A stretch of DNA of 64,000 nucleotides from Ilex aquifolium. Taxonomy: Eukaryota; Streptophyta; Magnoliopsida; Aquifoliales; Aquifoliaceae. Where the stretch lies: contig OX637394.1 of assembly GCA_951799425.1 (NCBI GenBank), positions 7,079,501 through 7,143,500 of the forward strand, written 5' to 3'. Numbering within the stretch: the first letter of the stretch is position 1; each line of letters starts with the position of its first letter. Below the pieces are notes generated by a model. It had not been told where the DNA came from, ran no database searches, and worked only from the letters and a program-made list of their open reading frames with translations. The position numbers and the translations under genes were made by a program. This document shows positions 4,587 through 55,951 of this stretch, piece by piece.

Positions 4587-6400
4587 TAGTTGATGCACGC
4601 GTGCACTGCACGCTAATAATTTTAGGTTTGGTTTTTAGTTTTCTCCAAATCGAATTATATGATCACCAATGAAATCCGTCATTAAAGTCTTACTCCGTTG
4701 ATCACAAATATGTCAACAATAACGTCTACTGATTTTTCTTATGTAAATTGTAAAAAAACAATCTTCTAATAAATAGATATGAATACACAAAGCTCAAACA
4801 AGGAAAAATATACAAAGTCAAACTCAATGGTGCTTAAGATAACATTTTGCTCTTTCAAATTGAGTGATTTCTAAGATATATGTTGAAAATTTTCATAAGA
4901 AGAACAATAATAATTTTTGATTCTGAATTCACATGTCAATCCTAACTTGGTCAATTGTACAAAATAAAATAAATAGAACCACTCAACTTATAACATGTTA
5001 GCAGTATTTTTGTTTTGTCCATGAAAATATATCCCTATGAGTTTTTTTTCTTTGCTTTTGCTTTTTTTCAGGAACATAACTATTTCAAGCATTTACATAC
5101 ATCTGAGAATTACCTTGCCATAGAGAACAAATGATTTATAAAACTTGTATTTTCATTTTAGTCACCTGATGGGATTAGAGATATGTCACATGAGAAGCCT
5201 TAACACATACACATACAATTCATTAAATATCACCCACAAGATACAAATGATGATTTCAAAATTTTAGCTGAAATCTGGAAACACAAAGTGCTCATACTCA
5301 TGAGGAACATAAACTATGGTAGTTAGGCAATTAAAATATATAATATGACACCGAGAGAAAGCTTGTGATAATTTGGAATAAATGTAGTGTCATAATATAC
5401 ATATTACATCAGTACATAATGATAAAGAAGACAAAACAAAAGGAATTAGAAATATTTGGTTTGGTTAGTGGCCGCAAATGAAGAGGGAAAACCTTTAGCT
5501 TGGACTCCAACATGGTGATGTGTTAGCTGAAATCTGAAAATAATATCTAGGTATGCTTTACGAAAATCGGTTTATAAGTTTGGCAAACCAATCAACTTCT
5601 CACCACTCCATGTCTTGGAGTTATGGACCTCTAAGGGTTCTATAAGAGTTATGTCTCTTTAATTGACAATAACTTGCAAGAGAGATTTCTGGCTCAGTGA
5701 AAAATCACAACAAAATGATATTATTTGATTGTTAACATGTTTTAAGGATATTATTGTCAATCAAAAATTTTGCACAAGTATTGAGATAGATGGATAGATA
5801 ATATAATATTGAAGGGAGGTTAAATGATGTAATATGACATGATTGACAATAAAAAATTAATTAGGGTTATAAGTAATATAAATATATATGTTTGTGAATG
5901 TAATTAATTTTAGAAAATCATGGAATATGATAGATTTATGTATTTAATTTAAGAAGTTAAAAGAGTATGAGAAATATAATTGACTTTATTATATTAATTG
6001 AGGGTAAAAGAGAAAATCAAATTTTTTTCATTGTTAGCCACTTCTATAAGTAGTATAGATATAGATTATTAACATGTTTTAAGGATATTATTGTCAATCA
6101 AAAATTATGCACAAATATTGAGATAGATAAATAGATAATATAATATTGAAGGGATGTTAAATGATGCAATATGACATGATTGACAATAAAAAATTAATTA
6201 GGGTTATAAGTAATATAGATATATATTTATGTTTGTGAATGTAATTAATTTTAGAAGATCATGGAATATGATCGATTTATGTATTTAATTTAAGAAGTTA
6301 AAAAGGTATGAGGGATATAATGGACTTTATTATATTAACTGAGGGTAAAAGAGAAAATTAAAAGTTTTTCATTGTTAGCCACTTTTATAAGTAGTATAGA
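4587..6400 (-). mobile_element. Non-autonomous Helitron (minus strand)
   Basis: On the minus strand the element starts TCTATACTACTTATA at 6400 and ends CTAG at 4587. Just before the end is a hairpin: GCGTGC and GCACGC flank a 3-base loop at about 4600-4614, 13 bases from the terminus. The flanks are A before TC and T after CTAG, as expected for Helitron insertion between A and T. No RepHel coding sequence is present, so it is non-autonomous. The 5' end is duplicated (see the separate entry). Confidence 0.82.
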
Positions 6401-6404
6401 TATA
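5732..6404 (-). repeat. Tandem duplication of the Helitron 5' end (~340-bp period)
   Basis: The segment 5732-6068 is repeated at 6069-6404 with a few substitutions and a 4-bp indel. Both copies end in the Helitron 5' terminus: TCTATACTACTTATA begins at 6059 and again at 6400 on the minus strand. The element therefore has two 5' termini in series. Confidence 0.85.
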
Positions 6405-6832
6405 AATATATTTTTATCCAATTTAAGTCATGGTGGTCAGCCGTTGAACTCGAGTAAGTAGTCAGTGCAAGTCTGCACCCTAGCAAAAAAAAAATAAGGG
6501 GGCAGTTTGGATGTAATGTAATCCACTTTTCATCAAAAACTATGGTTGATTCGTTAATTCAACAGACAATTACCAATTTGTATCGAAAAAGATTATAAGA
6601 GTGAATGAACTCATTTGAGAGAGTGCTTTAAGTTATAATTTTTTTGGATAAATCTCTAACAGGGTAACTATGAGAATGAATTAATTTAACCCAAAATAAA
6701 TAAATAAACTATGAGAATGAAAAAAAAAAAAAAGAATTGTAGTTTGACATGAATAATGTAATTTGATAATTTAATATGTTAATTGTCATTTAATTGACTA
6801 TAAAAATTATTTAATATTTAGATCAATAATGA

Positions 6833-38568: not shown

Positions 38569-40077
38569 CCATTACTTGAAGTCAAAACATATTTGTTGGG
38601 CTAACCATCAGGCCAACTTTATCGGACCTGTGTTTCCAACATTTTTTAAGATTGGAAAATTTGGGGGTCGGTCCTCTTTTTTGAACTTATTTGGACATAA
38701 GTCTACTCTAAAAATTGGGTCCTTTGGAGGCTGATCCCCTTTTATAGACTTATTTAGACTTAAATCCACTCAAAAAACTTATTTGAGAATAAGTTTATTT
38801 TTATCTCTATTGTCCAAAATACATTCAATAGTTATATTTAATTAAAACTTGTTTGAAAAAACTAACTCCTAAATTGAGAATTGTATAAATATTAACAACT
38901 CTTAACTTGGAAATTGTGCTATCACTAAAATTGTAACATTAACCAGTAACATGCTCAATAAAAAAATAGTAACATCAAACAATAACATGCTCAACAAAAA
39001 AATAGTAATATCAAATAGTAACATGCTTAATAAAAAACTTAATTAAAAATTTAATCATTATAATAGAGTGACAACATACAGTGAGTACTTAAAATTATTA
39101 TCTTGCTCATAATAAAATACATAAAAAAATAATTATGATTGGATTTACTCTATAGAGTCACTCTATTATATAATCATGGATTGGTCATTTCATTGTACAG
39201 TAGGAAGCAGTGAACTTGTAACTACAGGTAGACACCATAGAGTGACAATCAAATTCTATGTCTATTTTAATACTTAGTATACCAAAATCAAACTTGTGTC
39301 AAAACTTATGATATCTCATAGTGGCTGTCTTTAACCATTGACGTGTATCTATAGAGTCACACCATAAAGTGACAACCTAAATAGTGACTTGACAACTACA
39401 AAATTATATAACAAATTACTTGTTTTTATAAAGTGACTTAATTTCGTTTAAATTTTCAAATTTTAAATTGTAGATAAAGTTCAAGGAATATTAAAAGTCT
39501 CAAATCTAATATTTAGATATTAAAAAATATATAAATTAGAAAGAGAGAAAGAGAGAGTAGAGAAGTTAGATATAAAAACAAAATAAGGATGGAGAGAGAG
39601 AAAAGTAACGGTTGAGAAAGAGAGAAACGGTGGAGAGAGTGAGAGAGAAGAAGAGATGATAATGGAATATTAAAAGTCTCAACTCTAGTATTTAGATATT
39701 TGAAAATATAAAAAATGACAATTAGATATGCAATATTATCATGGATGGCATATTTGAAAGACCAAAACCAAAGCACCTAGATCTAGCTGCAAGATTAAGA
39801 GGACATCAATTGGAGGCGTAACTAAGAATACACAAGACAATCAATGTATAAAAGAGGAATTAAAAAAAAGAAAAGAAAAGAAAAAAGACTCACATAATAG
39901 AGTCTACTATAATCCTATAATAATTGTAAAGTTATTTACAGTACATAACAATAATCCTTAAAACAGTCTCTTATAATCCTATAATAATTGACAGGATAAA
40001 TTATCTCTCTTTCTCTTTCTCTTTCTCTCTCTCTCTCTCACACACACACACATATATATGATATAAAATAATAACAT
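38569..40077. other. AT-rich spacer with short inverted motifs
   Basis: ATAGAGTGACAA and its inverse TATAGAGTCACT recur at 39063, 39153, 39237 and 39350, suggesting a decayed palindromic element. Short repeats of AATAGTAACATCAAACAATA lie at 38935-39030. CT/CA/TA microsatellites are at 40001-40060. No gene is seen. Confidence 0.4.
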
Positions 40078-40345
40078 TCAAAATAAAAAAAATAGTAATA
40101 TTTAAACAAAAAAAAAAGTAACATTCAAACACAAAAAATAATAACATTCAAAATAAAAAATGGTAACGTTCAAACACAAAAAATAGTAACATTCAAAACA
40201 AATTTTGTTAAATGTTCCATGTTATTATTATTATTATTTTTATTGAACATGTTAGTATTGTTATTGAGCATGTTACTGTTATTTGTTGTGTTTGAATGTT
40301 ATTATTTTTTATTTTGAATTTTACTATTTTTTTTTTTTGTGTTTT
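40078..40345. repeat. Fold-back repeat of GTAACATTCAAACACAAAAA units
   Basis: Four or five units of the form TAACATTCAAA-CACAAAAAATA on the left (40085-40200) are matched by inverted units, such as GTGTTTGAATGTTATTATTTTT, on the right (40278-40345). They can form a long imperfect hairpin. A shorter copy occurs at 45140-45370. Confidence 0.6.
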
Positions 40346-41022
40346 GAATGTAATTATATGTATACAAACAAAGGAGAGAAAGAGATGGGAGAATCATTAA
40401 TATATATACAGACAAAGGGGGAGAAAGAGATGGGAGAGACATTAAATAAGTAGATGAATACAAGTCAAATATACAAAAGAGATATTTCCAAAAAAAAAAA
40501 AAATACAAAAGAGATGGGAGAAACATTAAATTTAGTTAAATACAAATCAAATAAATTGTCATCCCAAAAAAATATGTATTATCTTCCTTAGGATTGAAGA
40601 TAAATTAAGGATATTTAAGAGTTTCAAAAAAATTATGAACTTAACTATTTATTAATAAGATTAAAATAATACTTATTTCTAAATAAATTTGAGTGACAGA
40701 CTTAATTAATTAAAAAAAATTTAAATAAGACTCCGCCCCAATTTCTACAATTTTCAAATTGGACCTATGTTTAATTCCTTTTTGGTGGCCCGTCCTTTTT
40801 TTTGGGCTATGTCATCACTGTGGCTACCATCAGCCCAAAAGCTGACAACCCTACCTGACGGGCTTATTGTACAGTGCATGGCCCGCTAGACTTTCAATAG
40901 TAATCATTCACCAGCCTCAAACCTATATACTACGGTATTACTACCCAAAATTGTAGAGGGTGTAGCTATTAAAATGTAAATTGCTCGTTTTTTCTTCACA
41001 CTAGTATAGATTAACAACAAAT

Positions 41023-42631
41023 GATTAATTGTATTGAAAGTACTCAAAATATAGAATTTACTTTATTTTAGTCTCTAATATTTTAATTGAATTATTTTTT
41101 GTTCATGAAGTATTAAATATGTTTTTATGTATTACAGTCTCTCAAGTAGACATCATCTAGATTATTAACGGTTTTTTGATCATAAACTTGTCACATAATA
41201 CTTAAATATGAGGGAAAAAAATTTGGAACACTATTGACCAAATTTATATCTAAATTTTGGTCAAACAGCTACCCAGATTACACAATTTGGGTCATGAACA
41301 ATCCAAATTTAGGTCAGAATTACCAAAATTACACATTTTTTTGTCAAAAACTAACCAAATTTTAGAATTTTGGTCAAAGAGCCACCTAAATTATACAGTT
41401 TTAGTCATGAGCTATCCAAATTTGGTCAAGAGCTACCAAAATTACGTATTTTTTGTTTTGGTCATGAGCTATCCAAATTTTGATAAAGAGTTACCAAAAT
41501 TATTCATTTTTTGTCAAGAGTTACAAAAATTTTAGAATTTTGGTCAAAAAGCTACTCAAATTACATAGTTTTGATAATGAGCTATCCAAATTTAGGTCAA
41601 GAGCTACCAAAATTATATATTTTTTATTAAGAGCTACCCAAATGTTGGTCAAAAGCTACCAAAATTACAAATTTTTTTGTCAAGAACTACCCAAATTTTG
41701 GTCAAAGAACTATGCAAATTACATAATTTTGGTCATAAGCTATATAAATTTGGGTCAAGAGCTATCAAAATTACACATTTTTTGTTTTGATTATGAGTTA
41801 TTCAAATTTGGGTCGAGAGCTACCCAAATTTTAGAATTTTGGTCAAAGAGCTACCGAAATTATACAGTTTTGGTCATGAGCTATCTAAATTTGTGTCAAA
41901 AGCTACCAAAATTACACATTTTTTGTTTTGGTTATGAGCTATCCAAATTTGGGTCAAGAGCTACCAAAATAATACATTTTTGGTCAAGAGCTACCCAAAT
42001 TACATAGTTTTGGTAATGAGTTATCCAAATTTGGTCAAGAGCTATCAAAATTATACATTTTTTGTCAAGAGCTAATGAAATTTTAGAATTTTGGTCAAAG
42101 AGTTAACCAAATTACACAGTTTTGGTCACGAGCTATCCAAATTTATGTTAAGAGCTACCAAAATTACACATTTTTTGTCAAGAGTTACCCAAATTTTAGA
42201 ATTTTGGTCAAAAGAGTTATCCAAATTGTACAGTTTTCACATGCTATCCAAATTTAGGTAAGAGCTACCAAAATTACAAATTTTTTTGTCAAGAACTATC
42301 CAAATTTTAGAATTTTGGTCAAAGAGCTATCCAAATTACATAGTTTTGGTTATGAGCTATCCAAATTTGGATCAAGAGCTACCAAAATTACATATTTTTG
42401 GTCAAGAGCTACCCAAATTTTTGTCAAGAGTTATCCAAATTAATTTGTTGCTCATATTTAGGTATCACATGACAAATTTATGATAAAAAAACTATCAGCA
42501 ATTTGAATGTTATCTGTTTGAGAGACCACAATACATATTCAATACTTCAAGAACCAAAATGATGCAATTAAAATATTGGAGATCAAAATAAGATAAATCT
42601 CATACGTTAGACATCTCTAGTGCAATTAACC
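41023..42631. mobile_element. TIR element with a higher-order minisatellite core, copy A
   Basis: Left arm 41023-41213 (starts GATTAATTGTATTGAAAG, includes TCTCTAATATTTTAATTG and CATGAAGTATTAAATATG) is inverted at 42450-42631 (GGTTAATTGCACTAGAG, TCTCCAATATTTTAATTG, CTTGAAGTATTGAATATG). The arms are about 180-190 bp. Between them is a ~1.2-kb tandem array (separate entry). No transposase is present. A target duplication could not be fixed; AACAA occurs on both flanks. It resembles a fold-back or Mutator-like non-autonomous element. Confidence 0.75.
41239..42447. repeat. Higher-order minisatellite array A (~113-bp period of four submonomers)
   Basis: The core phrase is GAGCTAYCCAAATT. Four submonomers of about 30, 30, 31 and 22 bp alternate: one ending ACACATTTTTT, one ending TTAGAATTTTG, one ending ACACAGTTTTG and a short one ending AAATTTGG. 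Together they form a repeat of about 113 bp. The order is imperfect, with skipped submonomers. The periodic reading frames (QELPKLHIF, WSKSYPNY) are artefacts of the repeat. Confidence 0.88.
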
Positions 42632-43371
42632 CAATAACAAAACATAAGGAGTTATTTGTTGGATCTCCATTAAAATCGTTGATACTCAAACTTTAGACCT
42701 TATATAGAATAAAAGAAGCCAAGACTCTAATTCTCTGAAACAATTTCTGATGGATTCATGGAATGTTAATGTAAGTTAGGTGGAATAAAAGTATTTTTTT
42801 TTAAGCTACAAATCGAAGCGACAAAAAACTAAATATCAGATATTGAATATCAAATGTGAAATAAAAGATCACCAAGTAATACATAAAGTCTTGCTTGTTT
42901 TCGATTTCTATAACTGGTATGCAAACTCACATGCTCATTTGGAAGCATCTGTTTGATGGTTTTTCATATTTTGAATTTACTGGAAAAAGTTTGCTTTTGC
43001 CCTTTTTTTACTTTGGATGTATCCCACTTTCTCTCTTTTAAGTACCAAAAGCATAATTTACATGAATTCAAAAAAGCTATTAATTGAGAAAAAACCTTCA
43101 CAATAACTGTAAGTAGTGGTCAGTTTAGGTGGTTTTCATGCAAGTTAATGAAAGAAGGATTAATAGAACTTTTGATCTTTAAAGTACGTATTTTTTTCAT
43201 TTAGTCTTTATTGTATCAATTTTATTAATTTGATTTTTAAAGTATTCAATTCGTATCATTTTGATCCCTACATAAATGAACCATTAAGTTTTTGACAGAA
43301 TAATCACGTGTTGATGGAGCTTACAGTCAATCCAAATGTCACGTTGAATTAGGTCCCAATAGCATTGCTCA

Positions 43372-43377
43372 TATAAA
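43372..43377 (+). promoter_or_regulatory. Putative TATA box of GDSL gene 1
   Basis: TATAAA lies 40-45 bases upstream of the start codon. The same element is kept at 48493-48498 and, as TATAAATA, at 54661-54668 before the other two GDSL genes. Confidence 0.5.
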
Positions 43378-43416
43378 TATGAGGACATACCATGAGAAAA
43401 AGGACAAGTCTGAGTT

Positions 43417-44698
43417 ATGGCTCCTACCCTCCTGTTCTTCACCCTCCTAGTGCAAGTTTGTGCAGTCATTACCCGAACATGCAATGGTGCAACCCTATCG
43501 AAATTCTCTGCCATTTTTACCTTTGGTGACTCATTGCTTGACACAGGCAATAACAATTTCATCCCTACTGTAATGAGAGCCAATCATTTACCATATGGTC
43601 AAAACTTCCCTGGACATGTGCCTACAGGGAGGTTTTCGAATGGAAAACTCATTTCCGATTTCATGGCTTCTTCACTGGGAATCAAGGACACTGTTCCTCC
43701 TTTCCTGGACCCAAGACTATCGAGCAATGACATCAGAACAGGAGTCTGCTTTGCATCCTCCGGGGCAGGTTTTGATTATACAACTAATGCTCAATTCGGT
43801 GTAATCCCTATCTCAAGGCAGCCTCAGTATTTCAGGAGGTATGTGGAGAAACTTAAGGGAATTGTGGGGGTGGAAGAGGCTAGTAGAATAATCAATGCTT
43901 CTTTAGTGCTTGCTACTGGAGGAGGTAATGACTACATTGCTAATTACTATGCCTCTCCCACCGAGAGGTTTCAATATACTCTTACTCAGTATCAAGATTT
44001 CTTGCAACAGAGGATTGGAGATTTTGTTAAGGTTGACCCCCCCTCTCTCTCTCTCCCCCCTAAGAAAAAGCAGTAACTTAAGGTTTATATCATTATTTCT
44101 TTTGGTATTGTGTGAATTTACAGGCATTATACAATCTAGGGTGCCGTAATATGATGATAGCTGGGCTGCCTCCACTTGGTGATTATGTTGTTGTTCCTTA
44201 TAATCAGAAGCTTGTTGCTCGACTCCAGCAACTGCAGGAATCCCTTCCAGGAAGCAAACTAGTCCATGCAGATATTTACACACCATGGATGGACATGATC
44301 AAAAATCCATGGAAATATGGTAAGTTAATTTGCCTTTAATAGCAGTTCAGTAAGCACTTTTGTTTTTGAGCCATACCAGTTTCTTAGGCAGTCTTACAAG
44401 CACCAAGACAACATGATTTTCGAGCACATCATTTTTTAGCACATCAGTGTTGGGTCGAAATCTGATAATCAAGATGATAACCTTTGGTGTACTGAATTTT
44501 GAATCAGGTTTTACGGTAACAGACGGAGGATGTTGTGGGCTAGGATTTCCATCACTGGTTTGTACTGCACTCACCCCTTTATGTCCAGACCCTTCCAAGT
44601 TCATGCTTTGGGATTCAGTTCACCCTAGTGAATCAGCCTACCGATACATGTCTAAGTACTTGGAGGAAAATGTCATTCCCCAGTTTTTGCAACCATGA
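43417..44698 (+). CDS. GDSL esterase/lipase, gene 1 (unit A; 3 exons, 333 aa)
   Basis: Exons are 43417-44031, 44124-44319 and 44508-44698. The protein starts with a signal peptide (residues 1 to ~24). Block I is FTFGDSLLDTGNN with catalytic Ser39, block III GGGNDY has Asn171, and block V WDSVHPSESAY has Asp306 and His309, so the SGNH set is complete. Plant GDSL lipases are secreted hydrolases of lipids or other esters; the substrate is unknown. At 333 aa it is shorter than the third copy (360 aa): exon 2 lacks 60 bp, removing 20 residues after GLPPLG, including two cysteines of the usual CLP...C stretch. Otherwise the coding structure is intact. It is nearly identical to the gene at 48538-49830. 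Confidence 0.88.
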
Positions 44699-44997
44699 AA
44701 GCAGAAGATGAATTTTGAATCGGGAAGGATTTTGCAGTGACTAATAAAGGATGGTGTGGGAATGGATTTGTAGAATCAACAGTAGTTTGTAGTTCATCCC
44801 CCTCCCCCTTTATGTCCAGACCCCTCATGTTTCTTGTATTGGGATGATATTCACCCTTGTCAATCAGACTACCAACACATATCTCAGCACTCGAGGAGAA
44901 TTTCATTGCCCAGTTTTCACAAACATAAAAGCAAAGATGATCAATTTTTTTAGGTAAATGAAAGGTTATGTAAGAAATTGATTGGGGCAACCTAATG
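44699..44997. other. GDSL gene 1 3' flank containing a partial echo of exon 3
   Basis: TTTATGTCCAGACCCCTCATG near 44812 and GGGATGATATTCACCC near 44840, then CAATCAGACTACC and a CAGTTTTCACAAAC, repeat the order of motifs in exon 3 (44580-44695). A degraded duplicate of the last exon seems to lie just downstream. It is also present at 49940-50070. Confidence 0.6.
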
Positions 44998-45135
44998 GAT
45001 AGCTTAAGTGGTAACAAAGACGAACTGTAAATTTAGACGTCCTTGGGGCTAGACTATGAGCTTGGTAACACCTTGAGGCCAAAGTATAAGAGATTTATTT
45101 CTCATGAATACCCTAGTCCTAGAGTGGATGACATG
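44998..45135 (+). repeat. tRNA-derived SINE, truncated, unit A
   Basis: TAGCTTAAGTGGTAACAAAGACG (A-box) is followed by a body matching the SINE at 50135-50390, but the B-box portion is deleted. The unit A/B duplication junction falls inside this SINE, at GATGACATG. Confidence 0.7.
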
Positions 45136-46017
45136 CTTAGTAACATTCAAATACAAAAAATAGTAACATTCAAAATAAAAAATAGTAATGTTCAAACACA
45201 AAAAATAGTAACATTCAAAACAAATTTTGTTAAATGTTCCATGTTATTATTATTATTTTTTTTTGTTGAACATGTTAGTATTTTTATTGAGCATGTTACA
45301 ATTATTTTTTGTGTTTGAATGTTATTATTTTTTATTTTGAATTTTACTATTTTTTTTTGTGTATGTTTTGAATGTTATTATATGTATACAAACAAAGGAG
45401 AGAAAGAGATGGGAGAATCATTAATATATATACAGATAAAGGGGGAGAAAGAGATGGGAGAGACATTAAATAAGTAGATGAATACAAGTCAAATATACAA
45501 AAGAGATGGGAGAAACATTAAATTTAGCTAAATACAAATCAAATGTATTGTCATCCCAAAAAATATGTATTATCTTCCTTAGGATTGAAGATAAATTAAG
45601 GATATTTAAGAGTTTCAAAAAAATTGTGAACTTAACCACTTATTAATAAGATTAAAATAATACTTATCTCTAAATAAATTTGAGTGACAGACTTAATTAA
45701 TTAAAATTTTTCTAAATAAGACTCTCCCCCAATTTTTACAATTTTTAAATTGGACCTATGTTTAATTCCTTCAAGTTTTGGTGGCCCGTCCTTTTTTTGG
45801 GCTATGTCATCACTGTGGCTACCATCAGCCCAAAAGCTGACAACCCTACCTGACGGGCTTATTGTACAGTGCATGGCCCGCTGGACTTTCAATAGTAATC
45901 ATTCACCAGCCTCAAACCTATATACTACGGTATTGCTACCCGAAATAGTAGAGGGTGTAGCTATTAAAATGTAAATTGCTCGTTTTTTCTTCCCACTAGT
46001 ATAGATTAACAACAAAG

Positions 46018-47876
46018 GATTAATTAATTGTACTAGAAGTTCTCAAAATATAGAGTTTATCTCATTTTAATCTCTAATATTTTAATTGAATCATTTTTGG
46101 TTCATGAAATATTAAATATGTTTATATGTATTATAGTCTTTCAAGCAGACATCGTCCAGATTACTAACGGTTTTTTAAGTATAAACTTGTCACCTAATAC
46201 TTAAATATGGGGGGGGGGGGGGGGGGGGAATTGGGAACCTATTGACCAAATTTCTATCTAAATTTGGTCAAACAGCTATCCAAATTATACAATTTTGGTC
46301 ATGAGCAATACAAATTTAGGTTAAAAACTACCAAAATTTACATTTTTTCGTCAAGAGCTAACCAAATTTTAACTACTCAAGTTATACAGTTTTAGTCATG
46401 AGCTACCAAAATTACGTATTTTTTGTTTTAGTCATGAGCTATCCAAATTTTGATAAAAAGCTACCAAAATTATATATATTTTTTGTCAAGTAGAATTTTG
46501 GTCAAAAAACTACTCAAATTACACAATTTTGGTAATGTGCTATCCAAATTTAGGTCAAGAGATACCAAAATTACACATTTTTTGTTAAAAACTACCCAAA
46601 TTTTGGAATTTTGGTCAAAGAGCTATCCAAATTACACAATTTTGGTAATGAATTATCTAAATTTTGGTCAAGAGTTACCAAAATTACAAATTTTTTGTCA
46701 AGAGCTATCCAAATTTTGGAATTTTAGTCAAAGAGCTATGCAAATTACACAATTTTGGTCATAAGCTATCTAAATTTGGGTCAAGAACTACCAAAATTAC
46801 ACATTTTTTGTTTTGGTCATGAATTTGGGCCAAGAGCTATCAAATTACATATTTTTTGTCAAGAACTACATTAATTTTAGAATTTTGGTCAAATAGCTAC
46901 TGAAATTGCACAATTTTGGTCATGAGCTACCCAAATTTGGGTCAAAAGCTATAAAAATTATACATTTTTTGTTTTGGTTATGAGCTAACCAAATTTGAGT
47001 CAAGAGCTACCAAAATTATACATTTTTTGTCAAGAGCTACCAAAATTTTGGAATTTTAATTAAAAAGCTACCAAATTTTTCAGTTTTGATTATGAGTTAT
47101 CCAAATTTTGATCAAGAACTACCAAAATTACACATTTTTTTGTAAATAGCTATTCAAATTACATAGTTTTGGTAATAAGTTATCCAAATTTGGGTCAAGA
47201 GCTATCAAAATTACACATTTTTTTGTAAAGAGCTATTCAAATTACATAGTTTTGGTAATGAGTTATCCAAATTTGGGTTAAGAGCTATCAAAATTACACA
47301 TTTTTTGTCAAGAGCTACCCAAATTTTAGAATTTTGGTCAAAGAGTTAACAAAATTGCATAGTTTTAGTCATGAGCTATCCAAATTTGGGTCAAGAGCTA
47401 CCAAAATTACATATTTTTTTGGTCAAAAGCTATCCAAATTTAAGAATTTTGGTCAAAGAGTTAACCAAATTGCACAGTTTGGTCATAAGATATCCAAATT
47501 TAGGTCAATAGCTACCAAAATTACACATTTTTGTTAACAGCTACTCAAATTTTGAAATTTTGGTCAAAAAGCTATCCAAATTACATAGTTTTGGTCTTGA
47601 ACTATCCAAATTTGGATCAAGAGCTACCAAACTTACATATTTTTGGTCAAGAGTTATCCAAATTTTTGTCAAGAGTTACCCAAATTAATTTTTTGCTCAT
47701 ATTTAGGTATCACATGACAAATTTATGATAAAAAATTTATTAGCAATTTAGATGTTGTCTATTTGAGAGACCACGATACATATTCAATACTTTATGGACC
47801 AAAATGATTCAATTAAAATATTGAAAACTAAAATAAGACAAATCTCATATTTTGGAGACCTCTAGTGCAATTAACC
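46018..47876. mobile_element. TIR element with a higher-order minisatellite core, copy B
   Basis: It corresponds to 41023-42631. Left arm from GATTAATTAATTGTACTAG at 46018; right arm ends at TGCAATTAACC, 47876. Total length is ~1.86 kb against ~1.61 kb in copy A. The extra length is almost entirely in the tandem array. A run of 20 G (46209-46228) sits at the inner end of the left arm. Confidence 0.75.
46247..47693. repeat. Higher-order minisatellite array B
   Basis: Same submonomers as array A (41239-42447) but about 240 bp longer and with a different submonomer order. The end phrases bordering the arms are the same in both copies, so length change occurred within the array after the segmental duplication. 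Confidence 0.88.
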
Positions 47877-48537
47877 TAATAACTAAACATAAGGAGTTAT
47901 TTGTTCGATCTCCATTACGATCGTTGATACTTAAACTTTTGACCTTATATAGAAAAAAAGAAGCCAAGACTGTAATTCTCTAAAGCAATTTCTGATGGAT
48001 TCATGGAATGTTGATGTAAGTTAGGTGGAATAAAAGCTACGAATTGAAGCGACAAAAAACTGAATATCAAATGTGAAATAAAATATCACCAAGCAATACA
48101 TAAAGTCTTGTTTGTTTTCGATTTCTATAACTGGTATGCAAACTCACATGTCATTTGGAAGCATCTGGTTGATGGTTTTGCATATTTTGAATTTACTGGA
48201 AAAAGTTTGATTTTGCCCTTTTTCTACTTTGGATGTACCAAAAGCATAATTTACATGAATTCAAAAAAGCTATTAATTGAGAAAAAGAACTTTTGATCTT
48301 TAAAGTACGTATTTTTTTCATTTAGTCTTTATTGTATCAATTTTATTAATTTGATCTTTAAAGTATTCAATTCGTATCATTTTGATCCCTACATAAATGA
48401 ACCATTAAGTTTTTGACAGAATAATCACGTGTTGATGGGGCTTACAGTCAATCCAAATGTCACGTTGAATTAGGTCCCAATAGCATTGCTCATATAAATA
48501 TGAGGACATACCATGAGAAAAAGGACAAGTCTGAGTT

Positions 48538-49830
48538 ATGGCTCCTACCCTCCTGTTCTTCACCCTCCTAGTGCAAGTTTGTGCAGTCATTACCCGAACA
48601 TGCAATGGTGCAACCCTATCGAAATTCTCTGCCATTTTTACCTTTGGTGACTCATTGCTTGACACAGGCAATAACAATTTCATCCCTACTGTAATGAGAG
48701 CCAATCATTTACCATATGGTCAAAACTTCCCTGGACATGTGCCTACAGGGAGGTTTTCGAATGGAAAACTCATTTCCGATTTCATGGCTTCTTCACTGGG
48801 AATCAAGGACACTGTTCCTCCTTTCCTGGACCCAAGACTATCGAGCAATGACATCAGAACAGGAGTCTGCTTTGCATCCTCCGGGGCAGGTTTTGATTAT
48901 ACAACTAATGCTCAATTCGGTGTAATCCCTATCTCAAGGCAGCCTCAGTATTTCAGGAGGTATGTGGAGAAACTTAAGGGAATTGTGGGGGTGGAAGAGG
49001 CTAGTAGAATAATCAATGCTTCTTTAGTGCTTGCTACTGGAGGAGGTAATGACTACATTGCTAATTACTATGCCTCTCCCACCGAGAGGTTTCAATATAC
49101 TCTTACTCAGTATCAAGATCTCTTGCAACAGAGGATTGGAGATTTTGTTAAGGTTGACCCCCCCCCCCCCCCCCCCCTCTCTCTCTCCCCCCTAAGAAAA
49201 AGCAGTAACTTAAGGTTTATATCATTATTTCTTTTGGTATTGTGTGAATTTACAGGCATTATACAATCTAGGGTGCCGTAATATGATGATAGCTGGGCTG
49301 CCTCCACTTGGTGATTATGTTGTTGTTCCTTATAATCAGAAGCTTGTTGCTCGACTCCAGCAACTGCAGGAATCCCTTCCAGGAAGCAAACTAGTCCATG
49401 CAGATATTTACACACCATGGATGGACATGATCAAAAATCCATGGAAATATGGTAAGTTAATTTGCCTTTAATAGCAGTTCAGTAAGCACTTTTGTTTTTG
49501 AGACATACCAGTTTCTTAGGCAGTCTTACAAGCACCAAGACAACATGATTTTCGAGCACATCATTTTTTAGCACATCAGTGTTGGGTCGAAATCTGATAA
49601 TCAAGATGATAACCTTTGGTGTACTGAATTTTGAATCAGGTTTTACGGTAACAGACGGAGGATGTTGTGGGCTAGGATTTCCATCACTGGTTTGTACTGC
49701 ACTCACCCCTTTATGTCCAGACCCTTCCAAGTTCATGCTTTGGGATTCAGTTCACCCTAGTGAATCAGCCTACCGATACATGTCTAAGTACTTGGAGGAA
49801 AATGTCATTCCCCAGTTTTCGCAACCATGA
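48538..49830 (+). CDS. GDSL esterase/lipase, gene 2 (unit B; 3 exons, 333 aa)
   Basis: Exons are 48538-49152, 49256-49451 and 49640-49830. The predicted protein differs from gene 1 (43417-44698) at two residues that I can see: F to L in YQDFLQQ of exon 1 and L to S three residues from the C-terminus. The signal peptide, Ser39, Asn171, Asp306 and His309 are kept, as is the 20-residue deletion in exon 2, so the deletion preceded the duplication. Intron 1 is 11 bp longer because its C run grew to 20. The start-proximal promoter including the TATA box (48493-48498) is also conserved. Likely a secreted lipase or esterase redundant with gene 1; expression of either copy is not known. Confidence 0.88.
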
Positions 49831-49929
49831 AAGCAGAAGATGAATTTTGAACTGGGAAGGATTTTGCAGTGACTAATAAAGGATGGTGTGGGAATGGATT
49901 TGTAGAATCAACAGTAGTTTGTAATTCAT

Positions 49930-52408: not shown

Positions 52409-53845
52409 GGCTCCGATATCATGAAGAAAATTATAATAAAAGAGGTATTGGAGATAATAAAATTAAAAAAAAATAAGATACAAAAAATTAACGTGGTTCG
52501 ATAAATTATTTATATCTATGAATCTAATGTCTTATGGGTTATATCGATGTACTAGTTATTGTCTGTGCCTGAAGGTACAGAGTAATAAAAAATGATAAAC
52601 AATAAACATATTTGTATTCATATCCAAAATCAAATCACAAACATAGAGCAGAAATAAATGAATTTAAGCATCAATCGTAGTGGAGGTGAGAGGAGGTGAT
52701 GGTAGGAGACGGTGATGGTTGTGGTGGGTGGCAATGACCATGGTGCCGGTGGTGGTTGTGCCGGTGGCGGCCGCGGTGCCGGTGGCAGCAACGACGACGG
52801 TGGTGATGGTGGTGGCGGTGACGACGATGGTGGTGGTGGTGGCGGCGGTGAAGGTGGTGGTGCTGGCGGCGATGGCGATGACGATGGCGGTGGTGGTGGC
52901 GGCGACGACGGTGGAGGTGGCAGTGGTGGTGGTGGTAAAAGTAATGGTGGTGGGGGTGGTGGGGGTGGTGGTGGTAGAGGTAGTGGTGGAGCGGTTTCAA
53001 ACACTATTTTTTTTTTTTAAAGTACTTATGAGAAATAATTTCTAGAAGTACTTTTAAATAGTCACTCCAACACACACCCTTAGGAGCTTATTTTTCCTAT
53101 TAAATTTAGGGTGTTAATATTAGCCGTTAGATTAAATTTTAAAGTAAAATTAAAATTTAAAGCGATCTGAACCGCGAAAAACAAAAGTCATATTTGTATT
53201 CATATCCAAAATCAAATTACAAACATAGAAAATAGATAAATGAATTTAAGTATCGGTTGTAGTAGGGGTGAGAGGTGGTGGTGGCTGCGGCGGCGGTGGT
53301 GGTGGTGGGCGACGACGGTGGTGGCGACAACGATAGTGGCGACGGTGGTGATGACGGTGGTGGTGGCGACGGCGATGGCAGCAGTGGTGGTGGCGGCAGT
53401 TGTGGTGGCGGCGACGGTGGTGGCGGCGGCGGTGGCAGTGGTGGTGGTGGTAAAGGTAGTGGTAAAGGTGGTTTCAAACACAATTTTTTAAAAAAAAAAA
53501 ATACTTATGAGAAATAATTTTTAGAAGTAATTTTAAAAAGTCACTCTAAACACACATTTATGGCCCTATTTTTCCTATTAAATTTAAGGTGTCAATATTA
53601 GCCGTTAGATTAATTTTAAAATAAAATTTAAAGTGATCTCAACCGCGAATAGTAAAAATCATTTTGTTTATCTTTTGAAATTTGAATTGTAAGATACTTT
53701 ATTATATAGATTATTGAAGGTGATTGTGTACATAAAAGTCAACCGTATTTAAAAGATGATAAATGAATAAGATAAATATAATCACTTAACCTATCATCAT
53801 CTTATCCCAATAAAAAATATTGATGAATTTATATGAATCCTATCA
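52409..53845 (-). mobile_element. Copia-type LTR relic (minus strand) with nested insertions
   Basis: Read on the minus strand, the sequence from ~53845 (TATGATAGGATTCATATAAA) to ~53690 matches the LTR start at 51053. At the other end, CGAACCACGTTAATTTTTTG near 52510 and ATTTTCTTCA followed by TGATATCGGAGCC near 52410-52425 look like an LTR end plus a degenerate initiator-methionine tRNA primer site. The middle (about 52600-53670) is a separate duplicated GGT-rich element. Assignment is tentative. Confidence 0.4.
52606..53665. repeat. Twin copies of a GGT/GGC-rich microsatellite element
   Basis: Two direct copies (about 52606-53185 and 53186-53665) share left flanks (TTTGTATTCATATCCAAAATC) and right flanks (TTTCAAACAC, TACTTATGAGAAATAATTT, ATTAGCCGTTAGATTAA). 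The cores, 52680-52990 and 53270-53470, are irregular GGTGGTGGC repeats that have diverged strongly in length. Open frames on either strand here are translation artefacts (poly-G, poly-V, poly-P). Confidence 0.85.
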
Positions 53846-54668: not shown

Positions 54669-54693
54669 CTTGGTTAAAGAAGCTTTCTAGGCA

Positions 54694-55951
54694 ATGGAAC
54701 CTACACTCCTCTTGTTAACCTCCTTGGTGCATCTTTGCACCATCACCACCACCACCACCACTTGCAATGGCAAAACTTTGCCGAAATTCCCTGCCATTCT
54801 TATTTTTGGAGATTCAACTGTCGATACCGGCAACAACGATTACATAATTACTGCCTTCAAAGCAAACTACCGCCCGTATGGCCATGACTTTCCCGGTGCG
54901 ATTGCCACAGGGAGGTTTTCTAATGGAAAAATTGTTCCTGACTTCGTGGCGTCTTTCCTAAAGATCAAGGAGACTGTTCCTCCTTTCCTACAGCCAAATC
55001 TATCCGACGATGAACTACGCACGGGTGTCAGCTTTGCATCGGCTGGATCGGGATATGATGATCTTACCACTGCTGTCTCTCGTGTAATCCCGGTGTCTAA
55101 GCAACCTGGATATCTTGATGTTTACATAGAGAGGCTTAAAAGGATAGTAGGGGAAGAAGAGGCTCAAAAGATAATCAGTGGTGCATTGGTTATTGTTAGT
55201 GCAGGAACTAATGACTTCATTTTTAATTTCTATGACCTTCCCACTAGGAGGCTTCACTTCACCATTTCTCAGTACCAAGATTTTATACATAACAATCTGC
55301 AAAACTTTGTCAAGGTTACATACCTCTCTCTCTCTCTCTCTCTCATACATACATGTATCTATGTTTCACATTTGGGTAAATTTGCAGGAGCTGTACAATC
55401 GTGGGTGCCGCTTAATGGCTATAACTGGGATCCCTCCAATAGGTTGTCTGCCACTGCAACGGAACGCAAAGTCTCCAATTCTCAGAACATGCATAGAGGA
55501 TGAGAATTCAGATGCTAAATCTTACAATGATAAGCTTGAAAAACTATTGCCTCAACTACAGGCATCACTCCCAGGGAGCATAATCCTCTATGCAGATATA
55601 TTCAATCCTCTACTGAACATGACCAATGATCCACAAAAATATGGTAAAGCTTCACCACTTTCAGATTGGTTGGTCTTTTGGCTTTCTCTCTCTCATCTAT
55701 GGCTATTACTAATACATTTCATGAATGTTGTGTTTGGCTTGTCAGGCTTGGTGGAAACTAGTAAAGGGTGCTGTGGGACTGAATTGCTGGGAGCAGTACC
55801 CCTTTGTGATATAAACTGTCAAATATGTCCAAACAGATCACAGTATATGTTCTGGGATGGCATTCATCCTAGTCAATCAGCCTACAAATACCTTTCTGAA
55901 TACCTAACCAAGACACTCCTAGCCAAGTTTTCACAGATTAATGGCAGTTGA
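54694..55951 (+). CDS. GDSL esterase/lipase, gene 3 (3 exons, 360 aa)
   Basis: Exons are 54694-55314, 55388-55643 and 55746-55951, with intron positions and phases matching GDSL genes 1 and 2. The length of 360 aa is standard for the plant family. It has a signal peptide to about residue 24 with a threonine run, block I ILIFGDSTVDTGNN with Ser41, SAGTNDF with Asn173, and WDGIHPSQSAY with Asp330 and His333. Exon 2 keeps the full GIPPIGCLPLQ to RTC segment that is missing from the other two copies. It is clearly paralogous but well diverged (roughly half the residues identical by eye). Secreted hydrolase; substrate unknown. A (CT)n tract follows the first donor, as in the other two genes. Confidence 0.9.

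Follow-up and report, generated by a model that had tools for sequence, protein, structure and literature searches.

The window analyzed here is a stretch of 64,000 nucleotides of the Ilex aquifolium contig OX637394.1, and all positions given below count within it. It harbors two copies of a putative Mutator-type miniature inverted-repeat transposable element (MITE) with a strongly enlarged tandem array between its arms, both located in a local duplication that includes genes for GDSL lipase-like proteins. Copy 1 spans positions 41022 to 42632 and consists of two facing arms of approximately 180 bp around a tandem array of approximately 1.24 kb. The left arm (41022–41213, plus strand) and the right arm (42450–42632, minus strand) were delimited by their inverted match to each other and by the match to an arm model of the family. 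In a local alignment, 41025–41245 and the reverse complement of the right end (42629–42416) were 79.4% identical over 209 columns with a score of 139 (maximum of 39 in 300 mononucleotide shuffles), which confirms the inverted-repeat arms described in an earlier reading of the bare sequence (hereafter the original prediction). The inverted match extends approximately 35 bp beyond the arms proposed there, because the first core unit of the family consensus is an inverted copy of the last one. Copy 1 is flanked by the nine bases AACAACAAA on the left (41013–41021) and, according to the flank comparison, AATAACAAA on the right (42633–42641). Both share eight of nine bases, nine bp being the length of the target-site duplication (TSD) in the family.

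The core array of copy 1 (41214–42449, plus strand) was characterized by Tandem Repeats Finder (TRF), unit parsing, and autocorrelation. It starts with an inverted unit I, followed by nine A-B-C blocks with further units between them, and ends with a terminal unit. The sub-units of the window arrays parse as A31-B22-C31-D30, and the autocorrelation of copy 1 peaked at lags of 52 (0.474), 30 (0.454), and 113 (0.422), with a maximum of 0.364 across all lags in 200 mononucleotide shuffles of the same copy. The higher-order period of approximately 113 bp, as originally predicted, is therefore present, and the sub-unit lengths are close to the predicted 30, 30, 31, and 22 bp. TRF reported, among others, periods of 30, 52, 141, and 194 for copy 1; the period of 113 was reported for copy 2 only. 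The higher-order arrangement in copy 1 is regular close to both ends and irregular in the middle of the array. A full-length D directly follows four of the nine A-B-C blocks in copy 1 and five of the eleven in copy 2; the remaining blocks of both copies carry shorter or extra units.

Copy 2 (approximately 46017–47877), which had been missed in the original prediction, is located 5 kb further on and is longer, with the same build and an array of approximately 1.48 kb. Its left arm (46017–46212, plus strand; 87% identical to that of copy 1) and right arm (47695–47877, minus strand) were assigned by alignment. The array (46213–47694, plus strand; TRF, unit parsing, and autocorrelation) comprises eleven A-B-C blocks with the 113-bp period. 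A run of approximately 19 G stands at its start (approximately 46210–46228), which is absent from copy 1. The left TSD, as read from the sequence, is AACAACAAA (46008–46016), that is, the same insertion site as in copy 1, and the flank comparison gave AATAACTAA on the right (47878–47886). Four extra bases at the end of the element shift the register by 4, and the automatic TSD count used another frame. Since the left target copy AACAACAAA is common to both elements, with AATAACAAA and AATAACTAA as the respective right copies, both derive from one insertion. The two units of the local tandem duplication, with limits as set for their alignment, cover 40050–44740 (copy 1 and a GDSL-type gene) and 45120–49880 (copy 2). 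A second inverted structure with facing repeats of approximately 23 bases (TAGTAACATTCAAA...) was found in both duplicate segments (40065–40341 and 45138–45367).

For the characterization of the family, an arm model was built from the first 35 complete elements (70 arms), among them the two in the window, and was applied to 69 fetched loci and the window. After incomplete or truncated elements and one duplicate core had been dropped, 58 elements were retained. Their flanks revealed a TSD of 9 bp: the mean flank identity was 0.82 at this length, compared with 0.51 at 8 and 0.50 at 10. At least eight of the nine target bases were equal in 36 of the 58 elements (19 of them perfect), and the same was true for 1.8% of 3,306 mismatched pairs used as a control. 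Target duplications of nine bases together with long arms are an established mark of Mutator. The arms of approximately 180 bp are long terminal inverted repeats (over 100 bp) of the kind found in the superfamily of Mutator-like elements (MULEs). Based on the TSD length and the long arms, the element is best classified as a putative non-autonomous MITE of the Mutator superfamily. The canonical element of approximately 550 bp, which is present in high copy number and dispersed, fits this assignment and, judging from its length, would be too short for a transposase.

Genome-wide screens yielded 2,200 first-look candidates with the arm, 1,735 with the array, and 2,648 with the whole canonical element as a query; the best 40 candidates were scored per screen. 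Hence, the GGGTTAATTGCA-type family arm occurs far beyond this locus. The best 40 of the 2,648 candidates were 90–100% identical to the canonical query and nearly all approximately 550 bp long, and the listed family matches were spread over contigs C1 to C20. A comparison of the left arm with a plasmid collection gave no match. One canonical copy of 550 bases folds onto itself with a z-score of −22 relative to 100 shuffles and its best relatives are 97% identical, and the family was therefore probably active fairly recently. Empty sites were sought by comparing the joined flanks of the 58 elements with the fetched loci. The joined flanks spanned another locus for three of them, clearly in the case of L023 and weakly, with gapped or short matches, for L004 and L060. 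The L023 flanks, joined over a single target copy, matched nine element-free places in a host repeat, eight of which were ungapped for 30 bases on either side. Two of the nine lie within the window (53514–53711, ungapped; 53052–53194, gapped). The empty sites of L023 show real transposition, and together with the 9-bp TSDs and the genome-wide dispersal they bear out the mobile, Mutator-like fold-back element that had been proposed.

The core between the arms is short in the dispersed copies. Among the 56 complete elements outside the window, it measured 64–343 bases with a median of 189, compared with 1246 and 1492 in the window copies; the elements outside the window were chosen by similarity to the window or by motif, and the core lengths thus describe a non-random sample. 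The dispersed copies carry just five to six sub-units or so. The unit order I-A-B-C-D-E was found in 28 of the 56, where unit I is an inverted copy of the end of E, and A, B, C, and D have consensus lengths of 31, 22, 31, and 22 bases. Five elements showed small gains of units (e.g., I-A-B-A-B-C-D-E), one (L008) has an insertion in its core, and the other 22 mostly had fewer units or an odd parse. Neither L008 (core of 343 bases) nor L067, which has 660 bases between its arm matches and is not part of the 58, qualifies as an expanded copy; both read as insertions rather than arrays. Because the tandem core that lies between the arms varies in copy number, the family belongs to the tandem-repeat-bearing MITEs. 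Units A to D did not match their own reverse complements above chance (p = 0.36), so that they were not considered palindromes, and the significant match of the core to its reverse stems from units I and E.

The arms were also examined for internal tandem repeats, which mark Foldback elements of the FB/Galileo/Tetris type. In the arm consensus, GGTCCC is found at positions 17, 48, 77, and 108, and pairwise comparisons of three arm sub-units of approximately 30 bases gave p-values of 0.005, 0/2,000 shuffles, and 0.06. A common origin of arms and core from one ancestral repeat of approximately 30 bases was considered in view of these weak sub-repeats, but was rejected because the whole arm did not match the core significantly (p = 0.07). 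The arms are thus statistically free of the array motif, as stated originally, except for the inverted first core unit.

To what extent the array occurs apart from the arms can be read from 43 loci outside the window that were selected by array (19 of 41 array-screen matches and 24 of 56 motif sites, one locus being counted twice). Both arms were at least partly present in 40 of them, one arm in three, and none lacked arms altogether. A more sensitive scan of the three one-armed loci hinted faintly at a second arm in one case, L081 (E = 0.02). Long arrays without transposon ends, as expected of a satellite, were accordingly not found among these 43 loci, and the idea of a tandem array as cargo between arms holds for the short usual core.

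The 113-base higher-order unit is made up of units A, B, C, and D from the core of the element itself, D being longer by 8 bases. The D-to-A join created by this arrangement (AAATTTTRGAATTTTGGTCAAA) has eight exact sites in 800 Mb, six in copy 1 and two in copy 2. Its 17-base core was not found within two edits in any of the 56 other fetched elements. A looser unit pattern matched 1,730 sites in the genome within two mismatches (control, 8), 35 of them in the window. The 56 elements outside the window hold 71 such sites, approximately 1.3 each, with ten elements holding none; the genome-wide number therefore translates into a rough estimate of 1,300 family copies, and these counts do not point to a large free satellite. 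All eight exact join sites lie here, and the array was therefore most likely expanded on the spot rather than spread. The strong form of the original prediction, in which the higher-order array is itself carried and spread, was not supported. Nearly all complete copies do hold some array units between their arms, which would fit dispersal of the expanded array as mobile cargo. However, both window copies share one insertion site within a local duplication, the cores of the other elements are short, and the join is private to this locus, which already largely refutes this explanation; it is very unlikely.

The array could also stem from a pre-existing satellite captured by, or inserted into, a MITE at this locus, as repeat capture has been proposed for miDNA4 of Xenopus (PMC12628747). 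Two findings argue against this: units A to D of the array are those of the element's own core and follow one another in identical order, and the array-selected sample contained no arm-free loci. They make a capture extremely unlikely. Tandem arrays and duplicated genes are generally prone to be collapsed or falsely expanded during assembly. Yet both copies are present in a 53-Mb contig, have diverged by 10%, and differ in length and in their indels, and an assembly artifact is thus barely conceivable.

Taken together, one insertion of a Mutator MITE whose own core was amplified in place and which was later duplicated in tandem with a GDSL gene is very probably the history of this locus. The starting point would be a canonical fold-back of approximately 550 bp, in which arms of approximately 180 bp, extended by an inverted inner unit, enclose a six-unit core I-A-B-C-D-E made of sub-repeats of approximately 22 and 31 bp. 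Such a MITE would presumably depend on a Mutator-type transposase acting in trans. Units A-B-C-D of its core would then have been amplified approximately tenfold, most likely after insertion, giving rise to the 113-bp period. An identity of 11 bases, CAAATTTTGGT, precedes both A and E in the core consensus, and mispairing at these copies would give an A-B-C-D repeat; unequal crossing-over or replication slippage between these identities may have been the route. A segment of approximately 5 kb with the element and the GDSL lipase-like gene would have been duplicated afterward, and the two arrays would have drifted via gains and losses at the scale of units. In line with the latter step, the arrays of copy 1 and copy 2 differ by several indels, including ones of 61, 29, and 196 bases. 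The arrays of both copies are colinear, and the array expansion therefore probably preceded the duplication. Matched units were 90.8% identical on average (38 units, counting only those aligned over at least 80% of their length, which favors the value for the matched units), compared with 86.1% for the 133 same-class unit pairs within copy 1; units A and B show a large gap, and units C, D, and d a small one.

Several other points weigh against this history. Fewer than eight of the nine target bases are common in 22 of the 58 elements, and some target copies are of low complexity, at least two of the perfect ones being single-base runs. The loose-pattern sites were listed for approximately 100 places, and single diverged expansions elsewhere are possible. 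The expansion may also have happened before the insertion, in a source copy lost since then.

The two copies of the element differ more from each other than their surroundings do. Between the elements, 154 of 1,538 aligned positions (10.0%) differ, compared with 46 of 1,192 (3.9%) in the adjoining flanks (p = 3 ∙ 10−10) and 5 of 1,436 in the gene-side stretch. Polarized on the family consensus, 31 of 40 differences in the arms are C>T or G>A and four are the reverse; five more could not be resolved. At CHH sites, the rate of C>T was 0.119 in the element, compared with 0.031 in the flank. Decay driven by presumed cytosine methylation explains the uneven divergence best, and the faster decay of the element through C>T and G>A changes would be as expected under such methylation.

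The gene on the side of copy 1 is located downstream of the element (43414–44698, plus strand) and encodes a GDSL lipase-like protein in two open stretches. The first (43414–44076) matches PF00657 with an E-value of 4 ∙ 10−13 and the second (44417–44698) with 2 ∙ 10−4, under the curated cut-off. It is the first of three tandem GDSL lipase-like genes in the window, followed by 48535–49830, which was recognized through its near-identity to the first, and 54691–55951. Over 1,436 aligned bases, the identity between the first and the second gene is 99.65%, although it is 95–97% in the DNA just upstream. This contrast suggests recent gene conversion. The GDSL lipase genes next to the element and the type of the transposon would fit a flowering plant.

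Gene conversion of the flanks is also a live alternative for part of the divergence contrast: flanks and gene would have been homogenized by conversion that ended at the length-variable array, and the element would have kept the true age of the duplication. This alternative concerns the decay alone and not the identity of the element. In accordance with it, the identity is 96.7% in the left flank and 95.1% in the near right flank but reaches 99.65% in the part with the gene. The raised divergence also extends approximately 100 bases beyond the right border of the element (86.7% in bin 42600–42674 and 92.0% in bin 42675–42749), which also argues against decay restricted to the element. The left border, in contrast, is sharp, with the identity falling from 96.0% to 86.7% between neighboring 75-base bins, and the changes in the arms are strongly biased toward C>T and G>A, although the excess of transitions in the element over the flank is modest (p = 0.03). 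We consider gene conversion possible but tend to disfavor it. For the methylation-driven decay combined with the history outlined above, a wider picture has about an even chance of being correct: a Mutator-type MITE family would have dispersed pre-loaded with a minisatellite, each copy (roughly a thousand or more, as estimated) being a latent satellite seed, and the window would represent an ignition that was confined to one insertion and later copied together with the gene; array and arms would be decaying under cytosine methylation beside far less changed flanks.

The element is not a new kind of system; it joins the known tandem-repeat-bearing MITEs, and its main value lies in the clean expansion in place. 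MITEs with tandem repeats are reportedly the subject of a 2013 study of Satovic and Plohl on the clam Donax, an animal host. Published long-armed MULEs also show internal duplication, and replication slippage was proposed for one family; whole arms were duplicated there, in contrast to the core minisatellite described here. Array expansion inside MITEs has been modeled as a route to satellites by Scalvenzi and Pollet and by Hikosaka and Kawahara (PMC12628747). The elements miDNA4 of Xenopus tropicalis (Scalvenzi and Pollet) and Xstir/Xmix of Xenopus (Hikosaka and Kawahara) are likewise described as MITEs whose short internal array varies in copy number and expands inside a copy, with a satellite route proposed (PMC12628747; PMC9659126). 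In these descriptions, miDNA4 is a Tc1/mariner MITE (PMC12628747; PMC9659126), whereas the 9-bp TSD of the holly element points to Mutator, and unlike in these Xenopus systems, arm-free arrays were not seen in the sample examined here. The Drosophila virilis foldback Tetris is apparently non-autonomous as well, with internal repeats that vary in number and unequal crossing-over as the proposed cause, but its repeats of approximately 220 bp are part of the arms and additionally form satellite-like arrays of kb size (PMC4079207). The holly repeats lie between the arms and are 22–31 bp long, with no free arrays seen in the sample. The SIRC repeats of Arabidopsis are direct repeats inside MITEs with a proposed MITE origin (PMC10342631); the core units of the holly element are contiguous. 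A literature search that was thin on subscription journals turned up no Mutator-type MITE of plants whose core is constitutively a minisatellite.

That satellites are born from transposons is mostly concluded in hindsight. In the present case, unexpanded copies, the expanded locus, the expansion join, and a later duplicate are all found in one genome, and the order and place of the expansion can therefore be read fairly directly. The duplicate additionally gauges how much faster the MITE changes than the DNA right beside it. The locus is a well-placed example of how satellite DNA may start from a transposon.

Further repeats were noted in the window and at one fetched locus. GGT-rich arrays of several hundred bases are located at approximately 52799–53450 of the window and at approximately 2040–2940 of L003. 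They adjoin a hairpin followed by CTAG (window, 52552–52587; L003, 1951–1986), which we take to resemble a Helitron terminus. The match of the window to the hairpin end of L003 is weak (83% over 36 bases, E = 0.44). In L003, the unit of GGT array and hairpin end abuts and cuts off a copy of the arm of the MITE described here. Finally, a 341-base unit is present in two tandem copies, which are 92% alike, at 5727–6412 of the window.
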